A stretch of 64,000 nt of DNA, taken from positions 28,405,813-28,469,812 of the forward strand of contig CP137671.1 in the NCBI GenBank assembly GCA_037976565.1. Direction: 5' to 3'. The DNA is from Mesocentrotus franciscanus. Lineage: Eukaryota; Echinodermata; Echinoidea; Camarodonta; Strongylocentrotidae. The position numbers and the translations under genes were made by a program. Below, one piece after another: positions 1 through 55,670 of this stretch. Positions within the stretch are counted from its first letter, which is position 1. Each line of letters begins with the position of its first letter. The notes below the pieces were generated by a model. The model saw only the letters and a list, made by a program, of their open reading frames with translations, was not told the origin of the DNA and did not search any database.

Positions 1-1494
1 CTTGTCAACATCGAGACGAACTTCATCATGGTCTTCAGATGATTGAAGTGGACATAGAAAGGTCGAAGGCATCGAATATTGGTTTGTTTTCTTGGTGAAG
101 CTAGTAGCGCCTTTGACGTCAGCCACTGAGGAATACGTGCTGTCTATATCTGGTGTCATCGAAACAGGGTGGTCGACAACTCGCTTTCCATCGCTTTTGT
201 CTTTGCACTCATCTCCTTTACCCTCTCCTTGAACAAAGCCATCGACGATAGGAATGTTGCAAGTAGAAATGCTATTTGCTGGACTGGACTCTTCCATGTC
301 AGAATGTACCCGGAGGGTTCGAGGGTTAGCACGATCTTCGTGACTGGACTGCTTCGCCTCTCGATCTGAAATTTTGGTGTCTATTTTTGGCAAGTGCTGA
401 TTAGAGACAAACCCATGGACACTGGTGTCGATGCTGGGTCGAGGCTGGAGTCGAGAGAAGGTTGTCATTTCATTAGATCTTGAATCAACGTTGTCTTCCT
501 CTGCAGCTAAACTCGTTGGAGCATCAGTTGAACTATTCTCTCTCACGCAATATTTATCTTTCCGTAGAAAGTTATAGTAGCATAGTACGATCTTGCTTTG
601 AGGTGCCGGCTGTATCGATTGGCTAGAGACACTCGTTGAGAGGATACCATTCCCTTCAGTTGGCCCATCTGTAGTTGCCCGTGGATCAATTGTTACATTC
701 ACGCTCAAGGTTTCACATCGTAGTACGTCAGTCGAATTGATAGGTTGTTTGCTCCTGCTGGAGGATTTAGCTAAAGTTAAACTGTGGCAACCTTCGTACT
801 CTGTTAAGTCTAAAATATCAATGCTGTAAATCTTATACGAGGACTCATTCGAGGAATCATTATTTCCAAGACATAGGAATAAAATGTAATTGCTCATATT
901 ATCGAAACTAAACGGCAGTACCTCGCTACTAGCATTGTTCCACCATGTAACTGAAGTGTTCTCATTCGTTACGCAACAACTAAGCTGTGTTTCCACACTT
1001 TGATTGTACTCTACTAGATGGAGTTGTGGTGTGGGAAAATTACATCTTTTTCTTTCATTGCTTCTTCCATGAACAACAACACAAACATAGTCAACATCTA
1101 CCATAGCTTTAATATCAATATAAACACTGAATTCGTGGGTCAGGTTAAAATTGCTATATAGCATACGATCTGGACCCCGATCTTCAAATAGCAACTGATT
1201 TCCGGCTAAGAACTCTGCATGTTCGTTGTTACTGACCTGTGTCCACTGACAAGCCAGTTGAACCTTCCCTTTCTTTCTGTCCAGACGAGTGATGCAGGTG
1301 CTATTACTGCTTTCAACAACGGTCAAATAAAGTATCAGTGGTGTACAACTGCTTTCAGTTCCCTCATAAAGAACGATCAAATGTTGTCCAGAATCTTCAT
1401 CTTGGGCAGGTCTAATCAGTACTTCAAACGTGTAGTTTTGGAGCGATTCAATGTTCTGTGCAGTGGATCCGCCCATTTCTTTTTTTACTATCAT
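1..1494 (-). CDS. R1: beta-type Ig-like receptor, open frame without signal peptide or TM helix, cut by window start
   Basis: Reading from the first in-frame ATG (1494-1492), just after two stops, the frame is open for 498 codons to the window edge. It encodes the beta ectodomain with strands such as the CQWTQV motif and paired cysteines, then a tail with the peptide DSTYSSVADV. That fits the ITIM consensus SxYxxV (Tyr codon 133-135). Relative to R7, about 590 bp carrying the start, signal peptide and first half of domain 1 are deleted; sequence that lies upstream of R7 (about 34370) is fused directly to mid-domain 1 at about 1450. The position of the membrane helix is also altered: between the ectodomain end (DPRATTDGP) and the tail (LRKDKYCV) there is only a polar Ser/Gln/Pro-rich linker, where R7 DNA can encode a clear helix. 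As read, the product would be cytosolic. It may be a decaying copy that happens to be open, or an upstream exon may supply a leader. The C-terminal part of the tail lies outside the window. Confidence 0.7.
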   Translation of the reverse strand, partial: MIVKKEMGGSTAQNIESLQNYTFEVLIRPAQDEDSGQHLIVLYEGTESSCTPLILYLTVVESSNSTCITRLDRKKGKVQLACQWTQVSNNEHAEFLAGNQLLFEDRGPDRMLYSNFNLTHEFSVYIDIKAMVDVDYVCVVVHGRSNERKRCNFPTPQLHLVEYNQSVETQLSCCVTNENTSVTWWNNASSEVLPFSFDNMSNYILFLCLGNNDSSNESSYKIYSIDILDLTEYEGCHSLTLAKSSSRSKQPINSTDVLRCETLSVNVTIDPRATTDGPTEGNGILSTSVSSQSIQPAPQSKIVLCYYNFLRKDKYCVRENSSTDAPTSLAAEEDNVDSRSNEMTTFSRLQPRPSIDTSVHGFVSNQHLPKIDTKISDREAKQSSHEDRANPRTLRVHSDMEESSPANSISTCNIPIVDGFVQGEGKGDECKDKSDGKRVVDHPVSMTPDIDSTYSSVADVKGATSFTKKTNQYSMPSTFLCPLQSSEDHDEVRLDVDK

Positions 1495-2619
1495 AAGCAC
1501 TTATCAATTTTCAAACTAGGCGGAGTTTGCTTCACAATGGCACACGAAACATATCTTACCATGAAACCGAAAGGTTTATATCACATTTATCGTATTGTTC
1601 TGTCACCGATGTAGGAATTATACTTTACAACCTTCTTATCTTAGAAATGATTAATTGATGTAAATAAGAGATTCTCCGTTGGCAATAATTGTTCATGATC
1701 ATGATGAAGCATCGAATCATTATAATGTTCTTGAAACATCTATCAATTCTACTTCCTATTTGGTATGATTGAAAACCAAGTGAAATCCACCCATGATATC
1801 TGAATGTTAATATGATGAATATGATGATTATGCTTACATTGAATGAATCTCTGTGATTGTTATTTGTTACATATTCTTTCTTTATTGATGTTCTTAGAGA
1901 AATTAAGTATCATGTATCACAAGAATAGCCAAATGCTTTCACATTCCTCCTATACAACTATAGTATTATTTTAACCAAGATAACAAATTCAATATATAAA
2001 GGACATTTTAATTCGGTTGCTAACTAGTACCTATTAGAACCGAAACTCTTCTCTTTGTGGATTCTTTATATATTGTATCTTGATATCTTATTTTATCATA
2101 TTTTAAATTAGTACTTATCAACCACAACCATTAATTATAACAGTTATTCGAAATTGGTTTAAGTAACCCTGAAAAAAATCAAATGGCAAGAAAGGTCTGT
2201 TTTCAAACGTGAAAGTCAAAAACTAAACAAAACTAAAAAATGTCTTGTGATCACAAGACATCTACTTTTAATAATGAATCACAAAATCCCAAGGTAAGAG
2301 TCTTTAAACAATCACAAATGGTCATAAAGATTTCTTTGAGTATAGAAAGTAATAAACCACTTCATGTTTTATGGTGTAGATCTGTCGAGCCTCAGTGCAG
2401 TTTTCAAAGGGATCAAATCGAAACTATATACTAATAAATGGCCATTTAAAGGAGTCAGTGAGAAAGACGATGGGTCCTCGATATCACGAATATATTGTAT
2501 AAAACTGTTTGTGTGATCCCCACTTTTTTAACGCTGTTTGTGTACTAGGAGGGTCTCGGATGCGTTTTTTCTCCAGAATTCTGATAATGCATACATCATG
2601 AATCAAGCATCATCTGTAC

Positions 2620-2775
2620 ATTTGTATTTATTTATTTATTCATTTATTTACATGCATTTATCCAAATTTCCAAGGTTACATAAAATTACGGCACGGCAAT
2701 CCATTTTATTTCATTTACTTTATTTAAGCACGGGGGCCTACCTCAGCCCGAGGCCTGTCCTTCCGTAGGGCCGTG
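2620..2775 (-). repeat. Retroposon 3'-end-like repeat with hairpin and TTTA-rich tail
   Basis: The plus strand shows a run of TTTATTTATT-type simple sequence, then CCAAGGTTACATAAAATTACG, then a GC-rich segment (GGGGGCCTACCTCAGCCCGA) that folds back on itself and ends in CCGTGC. The same module recurs at 35285-35445 and 48470-48612, at the paralogous places in blocks II and III. Its tail part recurs at several other sites. This looks like the 3' end of a LINE or SINE, in reverse orientation, that was already present before the block duplications. Confidence 0.5.
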
Positions 2776-3331
2776 CATACATAGAAAAGAACATTCATCA
2801 TTAAGATTACATATATACAAAATGATAATAATGGATCAAATATTTACAACAAATACATATATGTAATAAGGGGGAAAACATGAAATATACTTTACTCATC
2901 AATATTTCTTTCATTCCACGTACATATTTAGGTTACGTTTGAAAATCACAGAATTATGATGATGCACCTTTGAGCTCTGGCCAGATCGAGTTCCAATATT
3001 TAACTGAACTCTTTTTCTCAAAACATATTTCTAATTTGTGCAATGAAAAGTTGTATGTTCAATTTGTTATGTTATAGTTAGACCGCTTAAATTCAAATAT
3101 ATCTGACAAGTAATTTGGGCAACTACGATTCGCGATCTTGTACATCATATCAAGAGTATGCTTGTTTTTTTTAATGCCTTCTGTAAGTCAATTGTTACCA
3201 TACCAACAATGTCACCTTTATCCATACAATCCAGCCAATCTTCTGTAACAGTAAAAAAGGTGGTCCCTGTTGAATGATGAGGCCTAATTCTAGATTACGT
3301 CACGTCAGTAATAGTATTTAATGATAAATAG

Positions 3332-3491
3332 TGTTACGAATATGCAAATTCGGAATATGCTAACTCCAAGTGATGATCGAGATAGTAATAAACCACGAAT
3401 GAAAGGTAACAAATCGTCTCGATTTTTATTGTATTGATTTTATTCTGATGTTGTTATAGGGATAATCTAAACTAATTACCCCGACCCAACA
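3332..3491. mobile_element. Solo-LTR-like insertion, 160 bp
   Basis: The segment starts TGTTACGAATATGC and ends CCGACCCAACA, so it has TG...CA ends, and it is flanked by ATAG on both sides (3328-3331 and 3492-3495). Blocks II (about 35998-36010) and III (about 48975-48985) have the empty site, reading straight from AATGATAAATA into CCATATA. TG...CA ends with a 4-bp duplication fit a solo LTR of a Ty3/Gypsy-like element. The length is short for an LTR, so a non-autonomous element is possible. Confidence 0.6.
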
Positions 3492-3829
3492 ATAGCCATA
3501 TAAATGATTGAAAATAAGCTTCTCGAGTATTTTTGCTAATACAGACAATATTGAGATGGCCTATAATTTCCCATTTCTTTCCCATCTCTTACAACTTTTG
3601 AACACAGGTATTTTTTTCCCTGTTTGTATCGTTAGATTTGAAATATTCGTTAAGGGTTTCGAAAATGCGATTGCTATTGGTATTAACCGAAGTAAAGGAA
3701 TATTGTCACTTCCTGATGTTTTCTTAAGTGGGAAAATTTTGAAGTATTAACATTCAGTTAAATAAAGCCAATACATCACAAAAGCTAGTCAATGCTTTTT
3801 TCAGTTCACTAGGCCTATACAGTAGTATA

Positions 3830-3925
3830 TTCATTAATTTATTCATGTATTATGTATTTATTAATGTATTTATTCATATGCATTATTACAATGTAAAAGG
3901 TAACATCGAATTACGGCACGACAAT
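3830..3925 (-). repeat. Retroposon tail repeat
   Basis: TTTATT/TCAT-rich simple sequence is followed by a degenerate copy of the AAGGTAACATCGAATTACGG word shared with the 2620-2775 repeat. The paralogous copy is at about 36340-36470, where the simple-sequence tail is longer. Confidence 0.4.
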
Positions 3926-4345
3926 AAAATATATACATTCTGTAAATGAAGCCAATACATTATATAGATATTTTGACTGCTATGAGAGGCATGGCAGAAT
4001 GCAATTCCCCGAGGGTCAGTATAGAAACAGCAATGCCTCGAATATTAAATCAGTCCATATATTTGTTATATACCGAATTCACAAAAAAAGTCTACAAAGA
4101 ATTCTGGCCTAATCCTTTTCTTGAGTAAAGATTGGTTAAAACATCACAGAAAATCTGAGAGACTGTTAATCTTTGCTGGAAAGTTGCCTGAATATTACGA
4201 TCATTCGGGAATCGCACACACTAAGCGACCAAATCGCACACGCACTGTTTGGTATCCGCGCTCGCACAAAGAAACATTTTACCCGTAAACCAATGGGGAT
4301 CTCGACGGCACAATTTATTTATGCGGGCCGTTTACCCTGGAACCG

Positions 4346-4470
4346 GGGCATGTGGGCATCTTTAAAAAAACTATTGACCGGTAGCCGGGCATGCGGGCAT
4401 CTTTTAAAAAACTATTGACCGGTAGGCGGGCATGCGGGCATCTTCAAAAAAAATACGGACTGGTAGGTGG
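4346..4470. repeat. GC-rich 41-bp tandem repeat, three units
   Basis: The word GGGCATG recurs at 4346, 4387, 4428 and 4469, an exact 41-bp period. Each unit contains an A-rich tract and the word CTATTGACCGGTAG or a near copy. It is much richer in G and C than its surroundings. The same array, with periods of 40-41 bp, is at 36897-37020 in block II; block III lacks it. A plus-strand open frame through it (4173-4418) is not supported. Confidence 0.7.
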
Positions 4471-4599
4471 GCATGGCTAAAATCACGACTCCAATATCGA
4501 CCAATCAGATGGCTAGATTTCTAAAGAGAGGTATATAACAAAAGCTACTCAATGCTTGCCCCGGTCACTAGTCCTACACAATATAATACTCATATATTC

Positions 4600-4740
4600 A
4601 TATATTAATTTATTTATTCATTTATTTATTTATTCATTTTATTTGTTTTAATTTATTTATTTTTTTATTCATCTATTTATTTACCTGCATTATCAAAATA
4701 TCCAAGGTTAAATAAAATTACGGCACAGCAATTAAAAATA
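4600..4740 (-). repeat. Retroposon tail repeat
   Basis: A TTTATT/TCAT simple-sequence run is followed by the words CAAGGTTAAATAAAATTACG and GCACAGCAAT, shared with the repeat at 2620-2775. The paralogue is at about 37140-37290. Confidence 0.4.
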
Positions 4741-6279
4741 TACATTCAGTTAATCAAGCCAATAAATTACAAAAGCTAGTCAATGCTTGCCCTTTTCAGT
4801 AGGCCTACACAATATTATATTATGTTCATTTATTTATTAATCGATTTACTTGTGAACTTATATTTTAAAGAGTAGCCTTGTCAGTAAAAAGTTTGCTTTC
4901 CACAATGGTCCTGTTGGTCTAGATTAAGTTATATACAATATGATTCAAGATTAAAATTACAGGAAAAAATGTTTGCAACATTCTATATAATTATATGTAC
5001 CAAATAATGATTTTTAGGCAAACTAAAAATAATATATCAAAAATGAAGGCGAATTCAAAGACTTCCGTTTAAAAAACTACCCCCCCACCAAAAAAAAAAA
5101 ATGTACATATATATATATATATATATATATAGCTATATATATATATATAAGGAAATAAATAAGCAACAACAGAAAAAGGTCTAACCATACGTTTTAGAAA
5201 TAACATCATTACGAAAAAAATGAGTGATGTGGAGGGAGAAAAACGATTTGATTACAAAAATAGCAATATATGTCATGATTTGATTATATTTCATCGTTCT
5301 GTCGATGATATTTATATATATGAGCTTTAAATTGGATTATGATAACAAATAATCTGTATACGAATAATCTGCAAACTCCATGTAAATGGCTTAATAGATT
5401 TTGAACGATAATACCTAATAATTTGATACAGATGATAACGACTAATAGTATATGTCATAAATTACAGCGTACGTTTTATTTGAATATGAATGAAGTATTT
5501 GCATTTTATATTATGGTTTTAAACCACTATACTGGACATGGATTTCTTTCAAATAGTTTTCTTCAGTGGTGTCTCTTATTACACCACATTTTTAAATATT
5601 TTGAAAATACATACTTACTCTAGTTGGTAGTCAAACTATTTCTTTGTCATTGATAATGATAAATTCATTGTCATTTTCACTCATAAGTCCAAGGAATCGT
5701 GTGTGTTTTTTAACTCGTTTATCCAGAGCTGTCCCGGTTTAATATCTTCAAGATTATACATGTTTATTTAAAAAACACCTTATCGTGTTGTATTCACAGT
5801 ACACAATAATTTAAAATCCACGAAAATAAAGAAATAGATACATATTTAAACTCACTCTCCTCTCAGGAGAGCTGAGTCTCAGACATTCTGAAATCACACG
5901 TTAGTACATTATCTTTATCTATATCATCATCATCATATATTACAGTCGTAATTTATATTTGTTGTAAATGTATATATGTTATTATGAACCTTGTAGCCAT
6001 GTGAAAAAAAAATTCTGAAAGGGTTAAAAAGAAGAAAAAAATATTAAATTCCTCATATGCTACTACTTTATACAAATAATAACTTAGCCGGATTGTAAAC
6101 TATGAACCCTTTACAAAGATAATGTGTGACAATGATTATTCTCTATTATTACAAGATTCATCAATTTCTGTTTTGTAGAATATTCCCCACGTTTTATTAT
6201 ACGCCAGTAATATCATTCGTGTCTACGAGTTTGCATTAAAACTATCAGCAATTATCCATTTATTTATGACGTGACGTTG

Positions 6280-6620
6280 CGTTATTAATAATAATAATAG
6301 TAATAATAATAATAATACATTTATAGAGCGAAGAAACTATCCAACATTAAGTATATATTCTGCTGCGCTATATACAAGAGCTCCTGATATGCTTAGATTT
6401 ACAGTTAATTGAAAAGATGTGCTTTCAGTTTTGATTTAAAGATATTTACAGATGGTGATCTCCTGACTTCTAATGGTAAGTTATTCCAGAGTTTTGGGGC
6501 TGGACAAGCAAATGCTCGATCACTTAGCGTTATTTTTGTTTTGATAGATGGGATCTGCAGCAACAAAGTATCTCGGGAACTGCGCAAGTTGCGTTCGAAT
6601 TAATTAAGTTTGAAATTATT
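6280..6620 (-). mobile_element. 5'-truncated LINE 3' fragment (block I copy)
   Basis: On the minus strand, 6587-6405 encodes a peptide containing the motif PKLWNNLPLEVRRS and ending KAHLFN. That matches the extreme C-terminus of LINE reverse transcriptase ORFs, including the two larger LINEs in this window (PQLWNNLPQCIK at about 63020; PKLWNGLPEDIK at about 51180). The ORF end is followed by GCGC-containing sequence and a TTATTA-rich tail on that strand. Block II has the same insert at 38870-39208. Block III has the empty site at about 53098-53112, reading directly GCGTTATTGGCTTTATTG. Confidence 0.75.
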
Positions 6621-6714
6621 GGCTTTATTGAGTTATGAGGTGATTCAACTTTTTAAGGCAATGAGCCCATACAACATTAAATGAAAGCTTTTTTGCACTT
6701 TCGTTATTTTGGAT

Positions 6715-6830
6715 ACAGTTTACGGACGATATCACTATCGCATGACGCGTGGAAAGGAGCACCTTTCACTGACACCCTCCTGCTGGTGTTAGGCAAACGA
6801 CGCCTCGTGTAAAACGGGTTTAATTAATAA
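6715..6830 (-). other. Downstream region of R2 with degraded polyadenylation signal
   Basis: This is the single-copy version of the 90-bp unit that is repeated four times downstream of R10. At the position where R10 and R8 have TTTATT on the plus strand (AATAAA in the sense), R2 has GTTATT, so the canonical signal has been lost. That fits a decayed gene. Confidence 0.45.
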
Positions 6831-6833
6831 AAC

Positions 6834-8902
6834 TCAATTGACATGATTAAACATGATTGGCAACAGGCCATCATTTTGAGCTCGAACCCTTTCCCAGAAT
6901 TCTTCATCAGGTTGCCTCGGGTCATCATAATCCGACTCCGAGGACGTCGTTTTCTTAGTCTTTCGGCTCATGTCTGGTTTGGCGTAAAGGAGTTCCACCT
7001 CTGCTCTTTGACTAGGTATGATGTCTGTCGAAGAAAGTTGTGGCGATGTCTTTGGAGCACCTGCTGAAGATGAGCACGCCTTGCTTACCGAATATGGGTC
7101 GAAAAGGTCTTCCTGGTGGCAAGGTAGTGGGTTTGATACTTGAGAATCTTTGGCCTTTGTATTTGCAGTACCACCTTCGACATTATCTAAAGAACAATAC
7201 GTATTGTCTAAGCTAGGTGCACTTGGAACGACTACACTTGCAGTATGTTCATAATGATGGTCAACGCTTCTGTCACCTGGAGCAGAGTAATAAGTCGTTG
7301 GTGGACACTCTCCTGCAGTATGAGCTTGCTCTTTGGCATTGTGCTTGGTATGGACATAGGGCCTGCACATCAAGTCCTGCCTTGCAGGGAGTATCGGGAC
7401 GCTCGTATGACTTTCCGAACAGGAGCCTGAGGAGGGCACGGTTGCTCGATTCGGATCAGGCACTTCCCTGTCCGATGTTTGGCGACAGGAGACATCTCGG
7501 CTCGGTCGAGAGACTCCAGATGACGCGGTCATTTCAACAGATTCAACAACGGTGTTACCAAAGTTGGTAGCTGAATTCATTCGGAAACTGATGTTTCTCT
7601 CGCTTCTATGGTCACATCGCTCTTTTCTTCGGATTTTAAACAGGAATTTGCCGAAATGAACACCTATGCTCAACGTTAAAGCAAAGCCTGTAATCACAAC
7701 AATAGGAATCAAGATATTTTGTTCACTTCCAATGCTGCTCTCATCTACATGTACATGTGCATCGTCACTGAAATCGATAAGCTCATTCGGACTTGCTGTA
7801 GTTGACGTCGCTGGTGTAATTGTAGCGGATAGAGAACGTCCTTTTGAAATATTATCCACGTAAACGGTAAGTATTTGACATTGAGAACCGTCGCTAGAAT
7901 AGTTGGAAGCATTTGGGTCTCTAGATGCATTCGTTAAAACGGAAATGATATTAAGATTTTTCTGTATGTCAAAATTCAGATATCCCATGCTTCTTATTAC
8001 AAGCATATTTGAGTCATCTCCCTCTTCACCGCAGAGAAAAATGGGAAAACTTGCAGAAATGCTTTCAGTAGAATTAAACCTCTTTAGGGAGCTGCCATCA
8101 ACAATGAACCACGATGTATTACAGCATTTAAATGTTGCATTCTCGGATTTAGTTAAATTGCTCTGAACTAAATCGCCAGGTTCTGTACGAAAGTGGCATA
8201 CCTTGCTTTTGCTTGTTTTACCATCAAAAACCTCACACTTGGTTGGTACAGTGCTTGCATCATTCAGCTTTTCAGGACGAAGAAAAATGCTATTTTTGTT
8301 GGTTATATATATTGACCATCCAAATTCGTCTCAGAAGTTTTGTGTTCATACAGCACCTGATCCCCTGCTACAATTCTTGCTCCGTCCCCATCGTTTACCT
8401 GCAGCCATCGACACGACATTTGTAATTTCCCACGTTTCTTGTCGAAGAATGTTTCGCAAATAGGCTTTGTCTCTTCGATTGTTAAATTCAATCGGTAAAT
8501 TAAACATAGTGGTCGTCCACGTTCATACAAAGTCACTTTATGCGTCCCAGTATCATTTTCGTCTGTAAGCATAATCAACATTTCATAATTATTTCCCCCT
8601 TTTTGGTAGTAAGTCAACCTATAACGTCCAGATTGTAAAGAAATGTTGTTAATGATGGTCATATTAAACGGAAGTTGAAATTCTGAGTCTGGAATATTCC
8701 ACACAGGGTATTGGTCTGCTAGTTGGTCGCGTACAGTAAAGTTGACATGGATGGTTTGCCCGTTGATTGCGACCACAGATTCTTCCTGTTTGTTGCTACA
8801 TCAGAAAATTTCATTACTTGAAAATGTCTGATGCAAATGTACTTGTAAAATAAAAAGGCTTAAAAATACCTTAACAGCCGGTGTAAGCCGTTCAGGAAAC
8901 AT
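6834..8902 (-). pseudogene. R2: alpha-type Ig-like receptor pseudogene
   Basis: It aligns end to end with the intact R10. The start codon (8902-8900) and signal peptide (MFPERLTPAVKVFLSLFIL) are kept. In the motif FWC that opens domain 1 the tryptophan codon is TGA (8801-8803). Domain 1 and the start of domain 2 are then open from 8776 to the word DGQY, where a 1-nt loss (about 8306) shifts the frame and creates an immediate stop. From 8306 to 6834 the rest is one open frame: end of the ectodomain, membrane helix (IPIVVITGFALTLSIGVHFG), and the full tail with DNTYCSLDNV, PILPARQ, LLYAKPDMSRKTKK and SDYDDP. A 23-bp deletion at the normal end removes the stop, so the frame runs about nine codons further. 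It carries two disabling lesions in an otherwise well-preserved gene. Confidence 0.85.
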
Positions 8903-11330
8903 TTTGCCGTCGTATAGTCCCAAATCTAACTTGAAAATGGAAGTGGAATACATAAGATGGTGTACAACAATTCTTAAACGACTAGATAGCTTGTTGTTAT
9001 TAATGGATCTAATATCTATGATCCTAATAATTATCGTCTCGCTGCAAATAAATGTTACCTGACAAAAAGGGCGGAGCCTGTTGCAATCAGGAAATATTTT
9101 TTTCTTTTATCATATATATCACCTCAAGTAGTGATTCGCTGAATGGTTATGCTAAATGGAATTGATATTACCTAAATCAGTTTCGGTAATAACGTACAAG
9201 ATTCATGGGTAAACAAAATGAAGGAAAGCTAATTAACGAAAGATCTGTTTTTATATCTGAAAGGAAAATGGAAAGAAAAAAAAAAGAAACAGAAAGAAAA
9301 GGAAAAAAATACGAAGTGGTGTTCTGTCATTACAATTTAAGGGCCTGAACAATATCTTAAAACTCAAAGGTAAAATTAGTATAAACAAAAGCTTTGTATC
9401 ACCTTTCTTGAGAATCGAAACTAATTAATTTCTCCCTCTCTTATGTCAAGGCAAGGCAAAGTGTACTTTCTTATTGAATCGAACAACACCTTCAATATCT
9501 TAACATGTTTAATGGACGAATACATTAATTTGTTCTGATACTTAATAGATAGGATAATACGCGATGCTTTGTCTGGAAATATCTGCGGATTATTACTTGT
9601 TGGAGAGAAGGTGAGTTCTGGTAAAGATGAAAGATGATTTTTGAGTTTTATCATTACTTGTATATCAGTACGGAAGAATACACTAGTCGAAATCTCTTCT
9701 GTAAAAAAAAACCCCTCATAAACGAAATATGACAAGAAATAGCTGAAGAGTTTTAGTGGTACAAACATTTGTGTGTAATCCCATATACCAATTTCTGTGT
9801 GCAGTGCATGTGACCTTCAGAGGTTGAATCAATTTCTGTTATTTTTGGTCTTTCAAAAACCTCACAGTACACACCAATTCTTCTGTACTGCTTTTGTAAT
9901 TGATTCCAGTCAGGTTTTTCTAAACAATGTAGGCCTAAAGCCTAGACGAGTACTCAACTTTATCTAGACTACCTTCTATCATGCAAACACGTTTTTATTA
10001 TGACTCCAATCCGAGGCATCTTTTAATGAATATCAACTTCTTGCTTCGCTTTAGGCAAAGGTAATTTTACATCAAACTATTTATAACACAAATAATACAA
10101 TAACGTTATTTGGTGGTCTGGCAATCCAAACACTTGGAGACCTATTAAAAAAAGGACAAACATGTCACTTGAAAGCTCATAACTCTGAGGGCGACAAATT
10201 TAAACCCAATAAAAGCATCAAGTATGTGCGTTGCAGCTCATCAACAGCCATAGACTGATCAGTAATTTAGACTAGGCTCAAAGCTTCATGACATTTTGTG
10301 CAAGTGACAAAATAGAGTCTGTGCAGCGCACACTAGTCGGTGTCTATATTTGTGTGTACAGCATATCAATAACATTCATTGGATTCTACATATATCCTAC
10401 CTGTAGATTGGGTATGTGCAAAAGATAATGATACATGTATTCTGTCATACATCAAAAAACAAAATTATAATGATTTAGTCGTAACTTGATTATTGATTTA
10501 ATACGGTTGACCAAGAAGGACTATGAACCCCTTGGCCTTCCAATGTCGAAGGAGAATTAGTCTAGAATCTACATCTGATGTAATGAGTAGCTATTGTTGG
10601 TCGACTTCCAATGTATTTTCGATTTTTCTAAAATTTCTTGGTTTATTATATGTGTAACATATTTATAACCATGATACATATTCTGCAGTTTTGAAGTTTA
10701 AATACTATTTGATACCAAAGTGTGCATAATCAATGTACACATACACGAATATACGGCTCCTGTATTATCGATATTTATTATGTACTGCTTTGATAAGTTG
10801 GACAGACATTTAATTAGAAGCCATATATGGTTTCTATGATGACGGTACAGATCGTAATACAACGAAGATAAACCTACGGGTCTTAAATGATTAAGGAACT
10901 ATCTGTCATTACGAAAAGATGAAATTAAGAAAGCTTAAAATGATTAATTGAGTAGCTAATGATAAAAAATATATGCCTGTGTGTGAGACAGAACCTAGTA
11001 TTATCTGGAACATTAAAACAACTCAGTGTCCTTTCGATATTTTGTAACCTAGAATAACATCATGACCATTAAAAAATCAACTCGACTGCAAAACTTAATT
11101 TAATATTTTAGAAACTACATTGGTATTGGTAAAAGTAAAAACAGGATTTGAAGGTAGAATAGTCAAGGAGGTTTTAAAGCAGATTACAAAAACATAAAAC
11201 AAATCGGATTCAGCGTAGGTTCTTTGAGGCAACGTTACAACTGCTTACATATAATTTAGATCTACATGTATATGGCATATTATATTTGTAACGATAATAC
11301 CAAATATGTTAATACAAATTATAATGACTA
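8903..11330. other. Upstream spacer of R2
   Basis: It is collinear with 41513-43985 and 55671-57720. The proximal part includes a counterpart of the R10 promoter: GGGCGGAGCC at about 9068 and an AT-rich TATA-like stretch at about 9108-9120, both more degraded than in R10. The remainder is AT-rich with no supported gene. A minus-strand frame at 9421-9768 has a counterpart in block II (42136-42384) but does not stay open across it. Confidence 0.5.
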
Positions 11331-22874: not shown

Positions 22875-22889
22875 CGCAACTCACAAGAT

Positions 22890-45740: not shown

Positions 45741-45988
45741 ATACTTTGATACAAAGCAGAAAGCCGCCCATGCTACATCTAATGCTAACCGCACCATCAC
45801 ATTCCAGAGAAGCGCGCGCTTTGCAAAGAGTTGATCGTCGATCACTGTTGCGGTATAAATAGTCTGGGAGAACATCAATAAGCAGCTTTGATACTCTGAT
45901 ACAAAGCAGAAAACCGCCATTTATGTTACATGTACATCAAATGCTAACCGCACCATCACATTCCAGATAAGCGCGCGCTTTGCAGAGG
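45741..45988. repeat. Direct duplication inside the foldback element
   Basis: The segments 45741-45830 and 45891-45988 are about 90% alike, sharing TGATACAAAGCAGAAA, AATGCTAACCGCACCATCAC and GCGCGCGCTTTGCA. The spacing is 150 bp. Short minus-strand open frames across it have no recognised domain. Confidence 0.75.
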
Positions 45989-46949
45989 TTCTGTTTAAGC
46001 TACATCGTTTTATAATTATTTGTTGTGAGAGATCAAACTCTGAAATTGACAAATATTTATTCATGAGTAACATATCAGAAAGATAGTTTTACTGTACACA
46101 TTTATAGCATCATGATACTGCTTGTAAACATGATAATATTGTTTGCCAGGTGTGCTGGCATACACTGTATACGACAGTTTCCAGCAGGTACATATTCGTA
46201 CAAGTCTACACATTAAACAAAATGCATCATGAATTTGGCAAAAAAAAACAGTTGAAATTGAGGGAATTAAACTGTATTTTTCCCACGTTTCTTAATCACA
46301 AACATGATTTTTTTAAATATAAAGTTACACAGTGTTATGGTCGAAAGCACTTGACAAAATACCTGGGTAGATATGTCTCAACGTTTACCACTTGTAGGCC
46401 CACTATCTGACATTCTTCAAGCGAAGCTTTGATATTGTTTATTAAACCTTTGTACCGGTAATAAAGTATTGATGAGGGGACAAAGCATCCATGTCTTTTT
46501 ATTAATTTTTGCTTGTCATAACAGTCTTTGCTGGGATGGACATGAAGATGGGTCTATTTACTGAATTTGTGGAATTTCTGTGCGATCTTTATAACTGATT
46601 CCCTGTTTTATCTCATTCAATCTTAATATTCTATGTACTTAGGCCTACTTCCTCAAAACCAAATTAACATTAAAACATCAACCAATTTAAAATATCGAAA
46701 TATGATAGAAATTAATATATGCAAACCTGATCACAAAATATAAGTTTCAAATTTATTTTCCACATTGTATTATCCTCAGGACATGTACGAAGTACAATAC
46801 ACAGTCATTTATAAAATATAATATAGACTAGCCCAATAGCTTACGTCTCGACATTTTGTGTGATAAAGTGCTGAGATATTATGACGGCACGAATTTTTAC
46901 CCCTAGATCTACATTTTGTTTGTGTACATGACATTTTTTGTGTGTCTCT

Positions 46950-47159
46950 GACATTTTTACCCCCGACATTTTTTCCTCTGACATTTTTACCTCTGACATT
47001 TTAACCTCTGACATTTTTTCCTCTGACATTTTTACCTCTGACATTTTTACTTCTGACATTTTTACCTCTGACATTTTTACCTCTGACATTTTTACCTCTG
47101 ACATTTTTTCCTCTGACATTTATTCCTCTGACATTTTTTCCTCTGACATTTTTACCTGG
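46950..47159 (-). repeat. 15-bp tandem array, right end of the foldback element
   Basis: GACATT recurs every 15 bp from 46950 to 47145 (14 units, consensus GACATTTTTACCTCT). It is the inverse of the left array. The period is a multiple of three, so both strands have long repetitive open frames (SDIFT and MSEVK repeats) that are not genes. Confidence 0.9.
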
Positions 47160-47171
47160 CACCACATATCT

Positions 47172-49036
47172 TACCATGAAACCAAAAGGTTTATATCACA
47201 TTTATCGTTTTGTTCTGTCACAGACATAGAAATTATACTTCACAACCTTCTTATCTTATAAATGATTAATTGATGTAAATAAAAGATTCTCCGTGGGCAT
47301 TAATTGTTAATCTTCATGATAAAGCATTGAATCATTATAATGTTCTTGAAAGATCTATCAATTCTAATTTCCATTTAATTGAAAACCGAGTGAAGTGGAC
47401 ACATGATATCTGAATATTATTATGATGAATTCATTCATTCAAAATGGTTTATTTCAAATAAAACTTTCATCGCGGCGTTTAGCCGAATTACAAAAGTTTA
47501 CAAACAAAATTAATGACACATAATGTAATATATAACATAACACAACATGATGTAATACGATGACTATGCTTATATTGAATGAACCTCTGTGATTGTTATT
47601 TGTAACGTATTCTTTCTTTATTGATGTTTTTTTCCCCTCAAAAGAAATTATATATCATGTATCATCAGAATAGACAAATGCCATCACAATTCTCGCACTA
47701 AGAGCTATCCCATTTCTCCTATACAACTTCTTCCAAACAAAGTCAGTTTATTGTTTGAGAAGGGAGTGACCAAACGGATTTTACGACATTTTAAAAAGTA
47801 TCATTTTAACCTTGATAACAAATTCAATATTAAAAGGGCATTTTAATTCGGTTGCTAACTACTACCACCTTTCTGCAAAAAAACAATTAAAACTGAAACC
47901 TTTCTCTTTGTGGATTCTTTCTATATTGTATTTTGATATCTTATGTTATCAACTTTAGTACTTATCAACCAAAACCATCGATTATAATAGTTATTCTTAA
48001 TAAGTAACCCTGAACAAAAAAATCAAATGGCAAGAAAGTAATTTCACTAAAGATCTGTTTTCATACGTAAAAGTCAAAAACTAAACAAAACTAAAAAATG
48101 TCGTGTGATCACAAGACATTTACTTTTAATATTGAATCAATAATGGTCATAAAGTTTTCTATGAGTATAGAAAGTAATAAATCACTTTATGTTTTATGGT
48201 ATAGATCTGTCGAGCATCAGTGCAGTTTTCAAAGTGATCGAACCATTTGTTACGTACAATATTATCAAGAAATGAGCATTTAAATAAGTCGGTGAAAGGG
48301 TCCTCGATATCACGAATACATTGTTTAAGACTGTTTGTGTGACCCCCCCCCCCCACACTTCTTTTGTTTACGCTGTATGTGTACTAGAAGGGTCTTAGAC
48401 GCTATTTTTCTCCAGAATTCTGATAATGCATACATCATGAATCAGGCGTCATCTGTAATTTGTATTTATTTATTTATTCATTTATTTACATGCATTTATC
48501 AAAATTTCCAAGGTTGCATAAAATCACGGCACGGCAATTCATTTGATTTTATTCAAGCACGGGGGGTCTACCTCAGCCCGAGGACTGTTCTTCCGTAGGG
48601 CCGTGCATATATACAACAAAGAACATTCATCTTTAATATTACATAAACACAAGATAATAATAATGGATACAATATTTACAAGAAAATACATAAATGTAAT
48701 AAGGGGGGAAACAGGAAATATACTTCACTCATGAATATCTCTTCACTTCCATGTACATAGGTTACATTTGACAATCACGTAATTATGATGATGCACATTT
48801 GAGCTCTGGCGAGATGCAGTTCCAACATTTAGCGCCATATTAACAGAACTCTTTTTCTCAAAACATATTTCTAATTTCGCCAATGAAAAGTTGTATGTTC
48901 AAGCTAAGAGGGGTCCCTGTTGAATGATGAGGCCTATTTTTGGATTACATCACTTCAATAAAACTATTTAATGATAAATAGCCATATATTAAATGATTGA
49001 AAATAAGCTTTTCTTTTTTGTGTGTGCTAATACTGA
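47172..49036. other. Intergenic spacer of block III
   Basis: Collinear with 1560-3520. A 130-bp insert at about 47430-47560 (CAAAATGGTTTATTTCAAAT...) is absent from blocks I and II and looks like a retroposon fragment. The retroposon-like tail repeat is at 48470-48612 and there is a C11 run at 48343-48353. No supported gene. Confidence 0.5.
48470..48612 (-). repeat. Retroposon 3'-end-like repeat, block III copy
   Basis: Same module as 2620-2775 and 35285-35445, here with a shorter spacer before the GC-rich foldback segment. Confidence 0.5.
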
Positions 49037-51269
49037 TCAAATCATGTGTTCGAAACCTCAGGTCATACCTGGCATCTCCGACCATTCTGCTATCTTATGG
49101 AAGCTAAACTTCGCTAAGCCTAGTCGGACCCACTCTACATATGTCAGTCGTAACATCAGAGATATTGACAGAGAGACCTTCGCGAATAGCATTGCTGACT
49201 GCAATATCACTGCTCCTGCTACATGTAGTGTCGAAGAAGCTGTTCATCACTACAAGTTAGAACTCGGGAGGGTTCTAGATGCTCATGCTCCTCAGAGATC
49301 ACGGAAAGTGAGGAATCATGCAGACTGTCCGTGGTATACCAATGACATTCGTACTCAGAAGAGGATACGTAGACAACTGGAGAGGAAATGGAGGGCCAAT
49401 GGCCGACTTCAGACTGACAAAGATCTGTACTGTGCCCAGCGTGACCTCGTAAATTCACTTGTGAAAAGGGCGAAGCGCTCATACTTTGTAGATCTTATTG
49501 AAGACTGTCGGAATGATTCCAGAAAGCTCTTCTCAGTAGCAAACCGACTTCTGAATCGTCGACAGTCATCACCACTTCCAGCCCACACGGACAGCCAGCA
49601 AATGGCCTCTACATTCACCCACTTCTTCCAGACGAAAGTCAAGACCATCTGCGACAGTTTATCACCTGACGAAACACCACACCATCCCCTTACTTCCTCT
49701 TCCTTTGAAGTAATACAACCTACTACCCCTAAGGAGATTATGTCACTCTTACGTAAACTACCCCCCAAATCATGTCAGTTAGACCCTGTTCCCACTAAAT
49801 TATTAATGGACTGTTCCTCCACATTCGCTCCCATCCTTTCTTACATGATTAACTTGAGTTTAGAGCAGGCACATGTTCCTTCCTCATTGAAAATAGCTCA
49901 TGTTACTCCGTTGTTGAAGAAACCTTCTCTGGACCGAAATTCCCTCCAAAATTATCGACCAGTTTCAAACCTACCTTTTTTGTTCAAAATTCTTGAAAGG
50001 GTTGTGTTTTCTCGTCTTTCGGATTATTTTCTGGACAATGATTTGTTCGACCCTTTCCAGTCAGGTTACAGAACCCATCATAGTGTGGAAACACTGCTTG
50101 TGAATGTGTCCAACTATATCCTGCAAGGAATGGATAGGGGTAACTCAACTGCTCTCTTGCTGCTAGACTTGTCCTCCGCCTTCGACACCGTTAATCACAC
50201 TATCCTTTTGAACACACTTAGTTCACTTGGTGTCAAGGGTGAGGCATACAAATGGTTCGAGTCTTATCTGTCATACCACTCTCAGATCGTTTGTATTAAT
50301 GGTTGCAAATCAGTTGCTTTGCCTCTCTCTTGTGGAGTACCACAGGGTTCTGTGGGCGGGCCTACTCTCTTCTCAATTTATTTAATTGGATTGCGACAAG
50401 TTTTGTTACAACATGGCATAGATTATCATATTTATGCAGACGATATTCAACTTATGATTTCCTTCAATTCAGATCAAGCCGCTGCAGAACGAGCCGTTCA
50501 TCGCCTTGAATCTTGCATGGCTGATGCTCATGATTGGATGCTCGCACGTTCCTTGAAATTAAATTTTGACAAATGCAAATTCCTTATATTTGGTTCCAAA
50601 GTACAGCTTAGTAAAGTTAATATCAATTGCATTTCATTTTCTGGCCACATAATTCACTTGTCACAAACGTGTCGCAATCTCGGTGTTATGTTTGACTCAC
50701 ATATGACAATGTCTGACCAAGTTTCTAATATTTGCAGATCAGTAAGGTACCAATTGCGTAATATCGGTTTTATTCGTAAATATTTGTCCAAGTCTGCCAC
50801 CGAAAAATTAGTACATGCTCTGATTTCCTCCCGTCTTGATTTTGGCAATGCCCTCCTAATCAATCTACCCCAGAATCTACTGTCCAAACTCCAGAAGCTT
50901 CAAAACGCTGCAGCTCGTATTGTTTCTCTGACCACCAAGCGTACCCACATTTCCCCAGTTTTGCAGTCGCTACACTGGCTCCCAGTAAAAGATCGCATTG
51001 TTTTCAAAATTGTGTTGCTTACCTTTCATTGCGTTCACGGCTCTGCTCCTCAATACCTTATATCTCTAATCCAAAACTACACTCCTGCAAGACCTCTACG
51101 CTCATCCACTTCCAATTTTCTTGTGACCCCCAAAATTACCAAAACGTGGGGAAAGATCATTGCATACTCTAGTCCTAAATTATGGAATGGCCTTCCTGAA
51201 GACATCAAAAAATGTTTATCTTCTGATTCTTTCAAAACTCATCTCAAAACATTCCTTTTCAAGTCTTGA
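49037..51269 (+). CDS. LINE reverse transcriptase, C-terminal part of the ORF
   Basis: The frame is open for about 744 codons within the element; a methionine at 48993 lies in host sequence. It starts with the last strand of the AP-like endonuclease (SDHSAILW), passes a helical linker (RIRRQLERKWRANGR), then the RT palm and fingers: LPPKSCQLDPVPTKLL, YRPVSNLPFLFKILERVV, QSGYRTHHSVETLLV, LLLLDLSSAFDTVNH, GVPQGSVGGPTLFS and the catalytic HIYADDIQ (YADD codons 50433-50444). It ends with the conserved thumb and C-terminal region (SPKLWNGLPEDI, FKTHLKTFLFKS). No stops interrupt it, so the insertion is fairly recent. Lacking the endonuclease and 5' UTR, it cannot move by itself. Confidence 0.9.
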
Positions 51270-51353
51270 TCGTTTTTCCTGTTTACACGCGCCTTGAGCA
51301 CTCCACAGAGTGGATTTGGCGCGATATAAGTTACATTATTATTATTATTAGTA
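49037..51353 (+). mobile_element. 5'-truncated LINE (CR1/L2/Rex1-like) with open reverse-transcriptase ORF
   Basis: The insertion lies between words that are nearly adjacent in blocks I and II (GCTAATAC...TATTGAGATGG). Its 5' end is cut inside the endonuclease domain, so only the terminal SDHS motif remains (GISDHSAILW). The 3' end carries GGCGCGATATAAG and a TTATTATTATTA tail at 51335-51350. A clear target duplication was not found. Confidence 0.85.
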
Positions 51354-53140
51354 TTGAGATGGCCTATAATTTTCCATATCGAATCTCTTACAACTGTTGA
51401 ACAAAGGTATTTTTCCCTGTTTGTATCGTTAGATTGGAAATATTCTTTAAGGGTTTCGTAAAAACGTAAGCTATTGGTATTAACAGAAGTAAAGAAATAT
51501 TTTTACTTCCTCATGTTTTCTTAGGGGGAACATTAGTTATTTTCATATTTATTTATTTATTCATATATTTTTTTACATGCAAATTTAAAGGTTACATAAA
51601 ATATTACACAGCAATTAAATATATACATTTGGTAAATGAAGCCAATACATTACAAAAGCTAGTCAATGCTTGCGCCTTTCAGTAGGCCTGCTTAATATTA
51701 CATGTATATTATGTTTATTTATTTATTTATTTACTTGTAGATTTATTTATACAGGGTAGCATTGTCAGCTAAAAAAATGCTATCCACAATGTCCCTGTTG
51801 GCCTAGAAAGTATATATAAAATATGATATCAGATTGAAATTACTGAAAAAGTGGTGCTTGCTACGTTCTATAAACATGTACCATATAATAATGTTAAGAT
51901 AAACTACGAATAATCGTTCAAAAAATACAAAGACTTTCGCTAAAAAACCCCCCCCCCCGCCAAAAAAAAAAAATATATATATATAATAATAATAATCAAC
52001 ATCAACCGAAAAAGGTCAAACCATACGGTTAAAAAATAAAATCATTTCGAAAAAAATGAGCGATGTGGAGGGGGAAAAAAAGATTTCAGTACAAAGTAGC
52101 AACATATGTCATGATTTTATCAGTTCTCAACATTTTCCGTTGATATTTATATATTCTTATCACCTTTAAATTGGATTGTGATAACAAATAATCTGCATAT
52201 AAATCGTCTAGAAACTACATTTTAAATGGCTTTAAATAGATTTTCAACGATAATACCAAATATGTTGATACAGATTATAATGACTTATAGTGAGAGGGGA
52301 ATGTTAGTGTATGTCATAAAATACAGCGTAAGTTTGATTTGAATATGAATGAAGTATTTAGGTGTTATATTATGGTTTTAAACCACTCTCATTACACCAC
52401 ATGTTCCAATAATTTGAAAATACATAACTCCTTCTAGTTGATAGTCGAATTCTTCTTTTTCATTGATAATGAAAAATTTGTTGTCAATATCAGTCATAAG
52501 TCCAAGGAATCATTGTTTATTTTAATCTTTTATCCAAAGGCACCCAGGTTTGAGATATTTAAGCGTGTTATTCATGCTCATTGACAAAACACTTATATTC
52601 ACACAATACTTTAAAATCGAAGAACATAACTTAAATAAATATTTATTCATACTGAATCCCCTCTGGAGAGCTGAGTCTCAAACATTTTGAAATCTCAAAT
52701 TAATATCTTATCTATATCAAACATTGCCATATGTTACATTCCTAATACGCTACTACTTACAAATAATTAATGAACTGAATCAATAACTCTGAGCCTTTTA
52801 CAATAATAATGTGTGACAATAATTATTATCTATCATTTGTATGTTCACTGTCAAAAAGCCATTGGAAGCAAAATTTCTATATAATGTTTGCATGTATGGA
52901 CCAATAAAATAATCATGAATCTTGAATCTTAAATCTTTAATCTATTGTTAAAATATTCATCACATTGAGTTTTGTATATTATTCCCCTTGTTTTATGAAA
53001 CGTCACTTATATTATACCTGTCTACGACAGTTAGCATAAAACAATCAGCAATTAGCAATTTATTCATAAAAAACGAATTCATTTGCAACGATAACGTTGC
53101 GTTATTGGCTTTATTGAGTTATCAGGGGATTCAGCTTTTC
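51354..53140. other. Intergenic spacer of block III, distal part
   Basis: Collinear with 3550-6280, continuing directly from the LINE. It contains a retroposon tail (51540-51615), poly-C/poly-A runs (51947-51971), a dispersed-repeat copy (52260-52400) and an insert at about 52845-52965 ending CATGAATCTTGAATCTTAAA that is missing in blocks I and II. At about 53100 it has the empty site for the LINE fragment of blocks I and II. No supported gene. Confidence 0.5.
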
Positions 53141-53186
53141 AATGCATTCCCATGCAACAGTAAATGAAAGCTTGTTTTGCACTTTC

Positions 53187-53192
53187 TTTATT
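53187..53192 (-). terminator. Putative polyadenylation signal of R10
   Basis: TTTATT on the plus strand is AATAAA in the sense, about 445 nt downstream of the R10 stop and just beyond the 90-bp repeats. It is kept at the paralogous place of R8 (39289-39294). If used, the repeats are in the R10 3' UTR. Confidence 0.5.
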
Positions 53193-53227
53193 TTGCATAC
53201 AGTTTACAGACGATATCACTATTGCAT

Positions 53228-53587
53228 GACGCGTGGAAAGCAACCCCATTTACTGGCACCCTCCTGCTGGCGTCAGGCTTATGACGCCTCGTTTATAACA
53301 GGTTTAATCGATAAACTGACGCGTGGAAAGCAACCCCATTTACTGGCACCTTCATGCTGGCGTCAGGCTAATGACGCCTCGTGTATAACAGGTTTAATTG
53401 ATAAAATGACGCGTGGAAAGCAACCCCATTTACTGGCACCTTCATGCTGGCAGCAGGCTAATGACGCTACGTGTATAACAGGTTTAATTGATAAATTGAC
53501 GCGTGGGAAGCAGCACCATTCACTGACACCCTCCTGCTGGCGTCACGCTAATGACGCCTCGTGTATAACGGGTTTAATTAATAAAAC
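53228..53587 (-). repeat. 90-bp tandem repeat, four units, in the probable 3' UTR of R10
   Basis: GACGCGTGG recurs at 53228, 53318, 53408 and 53498, exactly 90 bp apart. Blocks I and II have one unit each (about 6742 and 39329). Most units contain an inverted pair GGCGTCA/TGACGCC separated by six bases, a 7-bp stem. The period is a multiple of three, so the plus strand has a repetitive open frame (53142-53600) that I do not consider a gene. The array starts about 50 nt after the R10 stop codon. Confidence 0.85.
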
Positions 53588-53636
53588 TCAATTGACATGA
53601 TAAATCATGATTGACAACATTTTAAAAGATATATGA

Positions 53637-55670
53637 CTACAGGCCATCATTTTGAGCTCGAACCCTTTGCCAGAATTCTTCACCAGGTTGCCTCGGGTCA
53701 TCATAATCCGACTCCGAGGACTGAGTTTTCTTAGTCTTTCGGCTCATATCTGGTTTGGCGTAAAGGAGATCCACCCCTGCTCTTTGACTAGGTTTGATGT
53801 CTGTCACAGGTTTTGGTGATGTCTTTGGAGTACCTGCTGATGATGAGCACGCCTTACTTACCGAATATGGGTCGAATAGGCATTCCCGGTGATAAGGTTG
53901 TGGGTTTGATACTTGAGAATTTGTTGCTTTTGTATTTGCAGTACCACCTTCGACATCATCTAAAGAACAATACGTATTGTCTGCGCTAGGTGTGCTTGGA
54001 ACGACTACACCTTCAGTGTGTTCATAATGGCAGTCAAAGTTTCTGTCACCTGGAGTTGAGTTATTAGTCGTGGGTGGACACTCTCCTACAGTAAGAGCTT
54101 GCTCTTCGGCATTGTGCTTTGTATGGGCAAAGGGCCTGCTCATCAACTCCTGCCTTGCAGGAAGTATCGGGACGCTCGTTTGACTTTCCGAACAGGAGCA
54201 TGAGGAGGGCATTGTTGATTGATTCAGATCAGGTTCTTCCCTGTCCGATGTTTGGCGACAGGAGACATCTCGATTCGGTCGAGAGACTCCAGATGACGCG
54301 GTCATTTCAACAGATTCAGCAACAGTGTTACCAAAGTTGGTAGCTGAATTTATTCGGAAACTGAAACTCCTGTCGCTCCTACGGTCACATCGCTCTCTCC
54401 TTCGGAGTTTGCGCAGATAATTGCCGAAATGAACACCCATGCTCAACGTAAAAGCAAAACCTGTAATCACAAGAATGATAATCAAGATGTTTCGGTCCTT
54501 TCGCCCACTTCTGCTCTCATCTACAGGTGTAACAAAACTGAAATTGCTAGGCTTATCCTGACTTGCTGTAGTTGACGTGGCTGGTGTAACGGTAGCGGAT
54601 AGAGAACGTCCTTTTGAAATATTATTTATGTAAACGGTAAGTATTTGACATTGAGGACCGTGGCTAGAATAGTTGGAACCATTTTGGTCACCAGATGCAT
54701 TTGTTAAAACGGAAATGATATTAAGATTTTCCTGTATGTCAAAATTCAGATATCCAATGTCTCTTATTGCAAGCATATTTGAGTCATCTCCCTCTTCACC
54801 GCAGAGAAAAGTGGAAAAACTTGCAGAAATTCTTACAGTACTATTGAGCCTCTTAAGGGAGCTGCGATCAAGAATGAACCACGATGTATTACAGCATTTA
54901 AATGTTGCATTCTCGGATATAGTTAAGTTGCTCTGAACCAAATCGCCAGGTGCTGTACGAAACCTGCATGCGTTGGTCCTGTCTGTTTTACTATAACAAA
55001 CTTCACACATGGTTGGCACAGTGCTTGCATCATTCAGCTTTTCAGGAGGAAGAAAAATGCTATATTTGTTGGTTATACTATATTGACCATCCAGATTCAT
55101 CTCAGAAGTTTCATGTTCAAATAAAACCTGATCCCCTGCGACAAGTCTTGCTCGGTCCCCATCGTTCACCTGCAACCATTGACACGACATCCGCAATTTC
55201 CCACGTTCCTTGTCGAAGAATGTTTCGCAAATAGGCTCCGTCTCTTGTATTGTTAACTTCAATTGGAAAATTAAGCAAAGAGGTCGTTCGCTTTCATACA
55301 AAGTCACATTATGCGTCCCAGTATCATTTTCGTTTGTAAGCATAATCGACAATTCATATTTTTCCCATTTTTGGTAGTAAGTCAAACTATAACGTCCACC
55401 TTGTAAAGACATGTTGTTCACGATGGACATATTAAAGGGAAGTTGGCATTCTGTGTTTGGAGTATTCCACACAGGGTATTGGCCTGCTTGTTGGTCTCGT
55501 ATAGTAAAGTTGAAATGGATGGATTGCCCGCTGATTGCGATCACAGATTCTTCCTGTTGCTTGCCACACCAGAACAGTTCATTACTTGAAAATGCCAGAT
55601 GCAATTGAGCTTGTAAAATCAAAAGGCTTACAAATACCTTAACAGCCGGTGTAAGCCGTTCAGGAAACAT
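53637..55670 (-). CDS. R10: alpha-type Ig-like receptor, intact single-exon gene
   Basis: 677 codons from ATG 55670. An in-frame ATG at 55796 exists, but the signal peptide (AVKVFVSLLILQAQLHLAF) begins right after the lower one, which is also kept in R2 and R8. The ectodomain (about 30-390) starts LFWCGK, has ENDTGTH where Ig domains have DSGxYxC, then ICETFF...LRMSCQWLQV (strand B/C C-x-W pattern), FKCCNTSW, FLCGEEG and PQCQIL, with at least ten N-x-S/T sites. The helix lies at about 395-415 (LIIILVITGFAFTLSMGVHF), followed by basic residues. Tail: ESVEMT, PILPARQ (about 501-507, PxxPxR), DNTYCSLDDV (Tyr about 567), DPYSVS (about 602), LLYAKPDMSRKTKK (Tyr about 637) and SDYDDP (Tyr about 656). 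This is probably a cell-surface receptor signalling through phosphotyrosine adaptors. Ligand and family name are unknown. It has no introns, unlike most Ig-superfamily genes. Confidence 0.9.
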   Translation of the reverse strand: MFPERLTPAVKVFVSLLILQAQLHLAFSSNELFWCGKQQEESVIAISGQSIHFNFTIRDQQAGQYPVWNTPNTECQLPFNMSIVNNMSLQGGRYSLTYYQKWEKYELSIMLTNENDTGTHNVTLYESERPLCLIFQLKLTIQETEPICETFFDKERGKLRMSCQWLQVNDGDRARLVAGDQVLFEHETSEMNLDGQYSITNKYSIFLPPEKLNDASTVPTMCEVCYSKTDRTNACRFRTAPGDLVQSNLTISENATFKCCNTSWFILDRSSLKRLNSTVRISASFSTFLCGEEGDDSNMLAIRDIGYLNFDIQENLNIISVLTNASGDQNGSNYSSHGPQCQILTVYINNISKGRSLSATVTPATSTTASQDKPSNFSFVTPVDESRSGRKDRNILIIILVITGFAFTLSMGVHFGNYLRKLRRRERCDRRSDRSFSFRINSATNFGNTVAESVEMTASSGVSRPNRDVSCRQTSDREEPDLNQSTMPSSCSCSESQTSVPILPARQELMSRPFAHTKHNAEEQALTVGECPPTTNNSTPGDRNFDCHYEHTEGVVVPSTPSADNTYCSLDDVEGGTANTKATNSQVSNPQPYHRECLFDPYSVSKACSSSAGTPKTSPKPVTDIKPSQRAGVDLLYAKPDMSRKTKKTQSSESDYDDPRQPGEEFWQRVRAQNDGL

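Follow-up and report, generated by a model that had tools for sequence, protein, structure and literature searches.

What kind of gene has multiplied in this part of a sea urchin genome, and what might its products do? The window, by which we mean the whole 64,000-nucleotide stretch of Mesocentrotus franciscanus contig CP137671.1 analysed here, contains ten related gene copies (C1 to C10), all on the minus strand, found by searching it with translated copies. We propose, with a probability of about 0.6, that this locus belongs to a multigene family of sea urchins encoding, in single exons, type I membrane receptors with immunoglobulin (Ig) domains and a proposed signalling role. Support for the receptor architecture is good, a signalling role of the tail is likely, and an immune role is plausible by analogy; a paired-receptor logic is offered as a specific and testable hypothesis.

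Ten copies and their ectodomain

The array is not a product of chance. A search with tblastn, using C10 and C3 as queries, gave 30 matches at E<=1e-3 in the window, none of them on the plus strand, and no matches in the reversed window, which excludes chance as the source of the array. An earlier note made from the letters alone had described ten same-strand copies with a signal peptide, a Cys-containing ectodomain and a membrane helix, single-exon where complete, and our results agree. The fuller copies have a signal peptide-like start, a Cys-rich ectodomain and a membrane helix, and the two intact copies, C10 (677 amino acids, aa) and C3 (477 aa), are each a single open reading frame (ORF) from Met to stop. 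The copies are as follows.

1..1452, minus strand: C1, gamma-type; truncated at the 5' end and so lacking a signal peptide, tail interrupted at the window edge
6834..8902, minus strand: C2, alpha-type; long tail, ectodomain with a stop and a frameshift
17618..19051, minus strand: C3, beta-type; intact 477-aa ORF, short tail
20408..22880, minus strand: C4, delta-type; long tail, frame broken at several points, approximate 5' limit
23942..25940, minus strand: C5, epsilon-type; long tail, frame breaks and a stop, approximate 5' limit
27243..29257, minus strand: C6, zeta-type; ectodomain and membrane helix open, one frame change in the tail
31942..34065, minus strand: C7, gamma-type; long tail, frame breaks
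39469..41512, minus strand: C8, alpha-type; long tail, frame breaks and a stop
44090..44677, minus strand: C9, gamma-type fragment; first ectodomain domain (D1) and part of the second (D2)
53637..55670, minus strand: C10, alpha-type; intact 677-aa ORF, long tail

Besides the two intact copies, seven are frameshifted, stopped or fragmentary, and C1 is truncated and runs past the window edge. Introns were rejected as the cause of the broken copies, because an alignment of C2, C8 and C10 spans 2.07 kb and has few gaps, and because C2 and C8 differ in their stops and small indels. Assembly errors are not favoured as the source of every break, given that C3 and C10 stay open, as do two retrotransposon ORFs (758 and 1034 aa); single lesions, for example in C6, could be assembly errors. 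The tail ORF of C4, used as a query, gave a lone plus-strand match at 16899-16955, which covers 19 residues (79%) from the start of that ORF and is probably a small repeat and no copy.

The earlier note had named structure prediction as a check for an Ig-like fold, and D1 and D2 pass it: AlphaFold2 models matched to the PDB support a V-like Ig domain for D1 and a C-type one for D2, and leave the third domain (D3) unplaced. The Ig-like beta sandwich by which membership of the immunoglobulin superfamily is judged is therefore predicted by the models. Ten ectodomain cysteines are nearly invariant across the family. D1 is missing the B-F cysteines and has two cysteines positioned in the A and G strands, D2 has cysteines in the A, B, F and G strands, and D3 is a Cys-rich beta domain; we infer disulphide pairing among these residues.

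No match above threshold came from searches of Pfam and of PDB sequences with single proteins. Profile searches yielded weak matches only, one listing of eight consisting of four Ig and four unrelated profiles; the best curated match was V-set, at E 0.0014 and 19.3 bits against the cut-off of 26 by which superfamily membership is judged from profiles, and V-set was matched by 5 of the 25 family members, all below the cut-off. A Foldseek search with the 406-residue model gave 71 matches at E<=0.001, mostly antibodies, with TM-scores of ∼0.15-0.2 on the query. These whole-model scores are low because domain orientation is uncertain, and we therefore relied on per-domain alignments, in which D3 is barely covered. 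The eight matches at E<=0.001 in a viral structure library were generic Ig-like proteins with 8-11% identity. Foldseek of D2-D3 found none at E<=0.001, its list mixing CD147, KIR, LILRB1 and NKp46 with C2 domains, UNC119 and aIF2.

Homologues and conserved tyrosine boxes

Three protein searches gave 16 distinct homologues, P0001 to P0016 (two, then 13, then one new among six). Fourteen are proteins from ENA contigs, among which P0003 (716 aa) and P0005 (721 aa) appear to be full-length and to have long tails. Of the two others, P0002 is XP_011672742.1 of Strongylocentrotus purpuratus, annotated as ‘NYNRIN-like’, in which integrase-type Pfam domains are followed by an alpha-type tail, and which reflects either a genuine fusion or an error in joining the gene model. 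P0016 is LOC135153983 of Lytechinus pictus, an ‘uncharacterized’ protein of 689 aa that is 47% identical to C3 and 45% to P0003. The two species belong to different orders of Echinacea (NCBI taxonomy), and public annotation hides the family in both named records, as an integrase fusion in one and as ‘uncharacterized’ in the other. None of the 16, two of which bear organism names, is named from outside sea urchins, in a search that needs shared 5-residue words. Homologues of known unrelated function, which the earlier note had held would count against its reading, did not appear; the two named ones are an uncharacterized protein and a retrotransposon-fused gene model. We found no published description of such a family in the open-licence literature, which misses most subscription journals.

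We compared 16 tails, that of C1 being cut before the second box. The tails align poorly overall yet keep their tyrosine boxes, the first of which resembles an immunoreceptor tyrosine-based inhibitory motif (ITIM) or switch motif (ITSM). In C10 the boxes are as follows.

53952..53984, minus strand: box M1, ADNTYCSLDDV, ITIM/ITSM-like
53727..53768, minus strand: box M2, LLYAKPDMSRKTKK, YxxP
53691..53714, minus strand: box M3, ESDYDDPR, YxxP

The M1 tyrosine is present in all 16 tails. M1 is a strict ITIM in four (C1, C7, P0005 and P0016), a strict ITSM (TxYxx[VI]) in six (C4, P0003, P0007, P0008, P0011 and P0012) and neither in six (C10, C2, C8, C5, C6 and P0002). Thus, the ITIM/ITSM-like tyrosine ascribed to the array holds as a tyrosine, but the strict patterns fail in five copies of the window. 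M2, a YxxP with a basic stretch, is found in 15/15 tails, and M3 (Y[DC]DP) in 10/15; C6 has Cys for Tyr in M3, and C4, C7, P0005 and P0008 are without it. A terminal YxN occurs in eight tails (C4, C5, C6, C7, P0003, P0005, P0007 and P0016) and is absent from the four alpha tails (C10, C2, C8 and P0002), the tails of C1, P0008, P0011 and P0012 ending before the site. In an alignment of seven representatives from six lineages, the fully conserved columns lie in M1, in M2 and at one Ser of M3. When motif counts per tail were compared with shuffled tails, most were not significant (lowest P value 0.044, for YxxP in P0003; C10 excluded). Motif counts within single tails are thus mostly ordinary, and the evidence from the tail is its conservation.

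Two sequences had been described as common to the whole array. The tail box LYAKPDMSRKTKK, said to be invariant, occurs unchanged in C2, C4 and C10 and in altered form in C5, C6, C7 and C8; it is absent from C3 and the fragment C9, and beyond the window edge in C1. SDYDDP is present in C2, C5, C8 and C10 (4/10) but reads SDCDDP in C6 and is missing from C4 and C7.

Could these receptors be a remote echinoderm offshoot of the CD2/SLAM family? The pattern of that family, which our literature search did not confirm, is a V-like D1 without B-F cysteines and a D2 with two disulphides. The urchin cysteine columns appear to fit it: D1 is V-like and lacks B-F cysteines, and D2 has four cysteines. Some members have an ITSM-like tyrosine, and Receptor_2B4 is matched weakly (E 0.068 and 0.11). 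However, every sequence match is below threshold, the match to CD2 does not surpass those to many antibodies, the urchin proteins have an extra D3 and other docking sites, and 10 of the 16 tails miss the strict ITSM. The likeness is one of pattern, and we regard such descent as improbable.

A short tail, duplication and decay

The single tail that the ten copies had been thought to share does not extend to intact C3. This copy is beta-type by ectodomain and first membrane helix, and after VLRKYRH it switches to a 54-aa cassette instead.

17618..17785, minus strand: C3 short-tail cassette with a second hydrophobic helix, ending in YYRRA; the C-terminus of P0001 is its homologue

Those beta proteins whose sequence extends into the tail (P0003, P0007, P0008, P0011, P0012 and P0016) are all long-tailed, and P0004 ends soon after the helix. 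P0001 is alpha-type by ectodomain, but the same cassette replaces its helix and tail; the alpha copies C10, C2 and C8 are long-tailed. Between C3 and P0001, 34 of 54 cassette residues are identical, compared to 111 of 353 in the ectodomains. With cassettes so much closer than the ectodomains that they follow, recombination or a shared exon is needed. The C3 cassette starts at ttctcag|gg, which resembles a splice acceptor, and it may therefore have been captured as the final exon of a gene with introns. One short-tail cassette in two ectodomain lineages is, as judged from the sequences, a new finding and an arrangement like that of paired receptors. Related ectodomains with different cytoplasmic parts, by which paired receptors are defined, are seen here in proteins from different records; no single genome was seen to have both a long-tailed and a short-tailed form of the same ectodomain type. 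At its outer edge, C3 helix 1 (17850-17895) has an Arg where seven beta relatives have Trp (six) or Leu (one), and the P0001 helix has no Arg or Lys inside.

Local duplication with decay, as the earlier note had it, is evident from self-comparison of the window and from the lesions in the copies. Self-comparison gave four single genes and three copies of a unit of one gamma and one alpha gene, with pieces 72-89% identical.

1..10737: gamma-alpha unit A (C1, C2)
32335..43987: gamma-alpha unit B (C7, C8)
44105..57538: gamma-alpha unit C (C9, C10), containing the retrotransposon ORF 48993-51269

The single genes beta (C3), delta (C4), epsilon (C5) and zeta (C6) lie between units A and B. C2 and C8 are 92.5% identical in DNA, and each is ∼88% identical to C10; because their lesions differ, C2 and C8 probably died separately after duplication. 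A tree built from 19 ectodomains gives 100/100 support to each of the alpha, beta and gamma groups, and in it C4, C5, C6 and P0016 form long branches whose exact placement is unsure. Each of the three groups includes proteins from other records, and the types are thus probably older than the local duplications.

The ratio of nonsynonymous to synonymous change (dN/dS) ranged from 0.31 to 1.38 over 11 paralogue comparisons. It was 0.51 and 0.77 for C10 against C2, 0.33, 0.97, 1.03 and 1.38 for C10 against four blocks of C8, 1.02 for C2 against C8, and 0.31 to 0.76 for gamma pairs. By region, C10 against C2 gave 0.65 in the tail and 0.50 and 0.92 in overlapping ectodomain blocks. Every comparison includes broken copies, and diversifying selection is therefore neither proved nor excluded by these values.

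The array might be largely dead, a decaying cluster in which short-tailed C3 is a recombination accident and the working genes lie elsewhere. The number of intact copies (2/10) and the dN/dS of C2 against C8 are what such decay would leave, and two hydrophobic helices in C3 are odd for a designed receptor. However, the frames of C3 and C10 are fully open, intact long-tailed proteins occur in other records, and the homologous cassette in P0001 indicates that the cassette is no private accident of C3. We therefore consider a largely dead array unlikely, though somewhat less so than CD2/SLAM descent. The copies, conserved tyrosine boxes, tail exchange, duplication and decay are read directly from the sequences, and the Ig-like D1 and D2 from the models.

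The window also contains other repeats. The two retrotransposon ORFs, on the plus strand at 48993-51269 (758 aa) and 59721-62825 (1034 aa), are of non-LTR (long terminal repeat) type with reverse transcriptase; the second also has an endonuclease/phosphatase-type domain, and the first is the one inside unit C. Just downstream of the C10 stop, at 53226-53586, are four 90-bp tandem repeats (90% matches), in frame on the plus strand inside a 152-aa ORF. A further repeat of ∼0.8-0.9 kb, 72-84% identical, is found at 11468-12293, 29259-30188 and 58355-59449, one copy lying directly upstream of C6. Upstream of C9, 15-bp tandem repeats of GTAAAAATGTCAGAG or its complement stand in opposite orientation at 45132-45195 and 46946-47157, ∼1.7 kb apart.

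Known receptor systems and a possible mechanism

Vertebrate paired Ig receptors (KIR, LILR, PILR, SIRP and CEACAM) are described as clustered Ig receptors with similar ectodomains and differing cytoplasmic parts, subject to birth and death and to exchange of tail-coding parts between duplicated genes (PMC3533184, PMC2832619), and in these respects the urchin family is like them. Activating members are marked, in the account given in PMC3533184, by a short tail and a charged membrane residue. The urchin family differs in its single exon, its three-domain ectodomain with its own ten-Cys pattern, a tail that mixes ITIM/ITSM-like, YxxP and YxN sites, no consistent charged membrane residue, and no sequence match above threshold. 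The locus may, tentatively, belong to a sea urchin paired-receptor complex that is independent of vertebrates, in which ectodomain types are recombined onto a multi-tyrosine or a short tail and gamma-alpha pairs are born and die.

The docking sites of long-tailed members would comprise the ITIM/ITSM-like site, one or two YxxP sites and, in most lineages other than alpha, the terminal YxN. In the mechanism that we consider most likely, the ectodomain would bind a ligand on another cell or on a microbe, and Src-type kinases would phosphorylate the tail. Proteins with SH2 domains would then dock: the first site would take an SHP-type phosphatase or a SAP-like protein, YxxP would take Crk or Nck, and YxN would take Grb2. 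These proteins would determine how readily an immune cell (coelomocyte) is activated. Members with a short tail, which have the same ectodomain type and no docking sites, may be decoys or adaptor-linked partners. Phosphorylation, SH2 partners, cell type, ligand and sign of the signal are what we infer, the partners from motif preferences: YxxP binds Crk or Nck, YxN binds Grb2, and ITSM binds SAP or SHP, preferences that our literature search did not confirm. There is no mention of YxxP or YxN in PMC2559891.

The same proteins might instead serve recognition between gametes or tissues, as fertilisation or allorecognition receptors on eggs, sperm or tissue cells whose diversity stems from sexual conflict or from graft and fusion barriers. 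Single-exon structure is common among testis-expressed genes, a point for a gamete role. The arrays of Ig receptors with ITIM-type tails that are known from invertebrates act in allorecognition, as far as described for Botryllus FcoR (PMC12065747) and Hydractinia Alr (PMC11999971), and sea urchins respond to grafts according to a passage in a review (PMC2248247). There is no specific argument against such a role, but several docking tyrosines together with tail exchange recall immune paired receptors more. We think gamete or tissue recognition rather unlikely, if the least so of the alternatives.

In overall plan, the family is like Botryllus FcoR, whose members are described as clustered Ig type I receptors, 520-610 aa long, that combine a V-type Ig domain with C2-type ones and bear an ITIM, hemITAM or core YxxI/L/V motif in their long tail (PMC12065747). 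According to that description, FcoR has a sushi domain between its Ig domains and switches motifs by alternative splicing, whereas the urchin family is single-exon; we found no sushi domain among the 16 families listed for 25 members, and in the model the D2 strands follow directly after D1. Hydractinia Alr, with 41 members, is likewise described as an invertebrate array of unusual Ig-type receptors (PMC11999971), and is likened here by description only. The urchin family has differing resemblances to paired receptors, CD2/SLAM and FcoR, and we assign it to none of them.

The usual account of sea urchin immunity is one of TLR, NLR, SRCR and Sp185/333 expansions, which we take not to be Ig receptors with a tyrosine tail. 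As expanded families with a role in immunity, plausible for the receptors described here, they are alike, to the extent that the sources treat them (PMC1988830, PMC10855680, PMC3567187). To that account the family adds a concrete set of candidate genes for study in coelomocytes. If the paired-receptor complex is real, the leukocyte receptor complex would have a counterpart among invertebrates, and the long-tail and short-tail logic of natural killer-type cells would have arisen or persisted outside the chordates.

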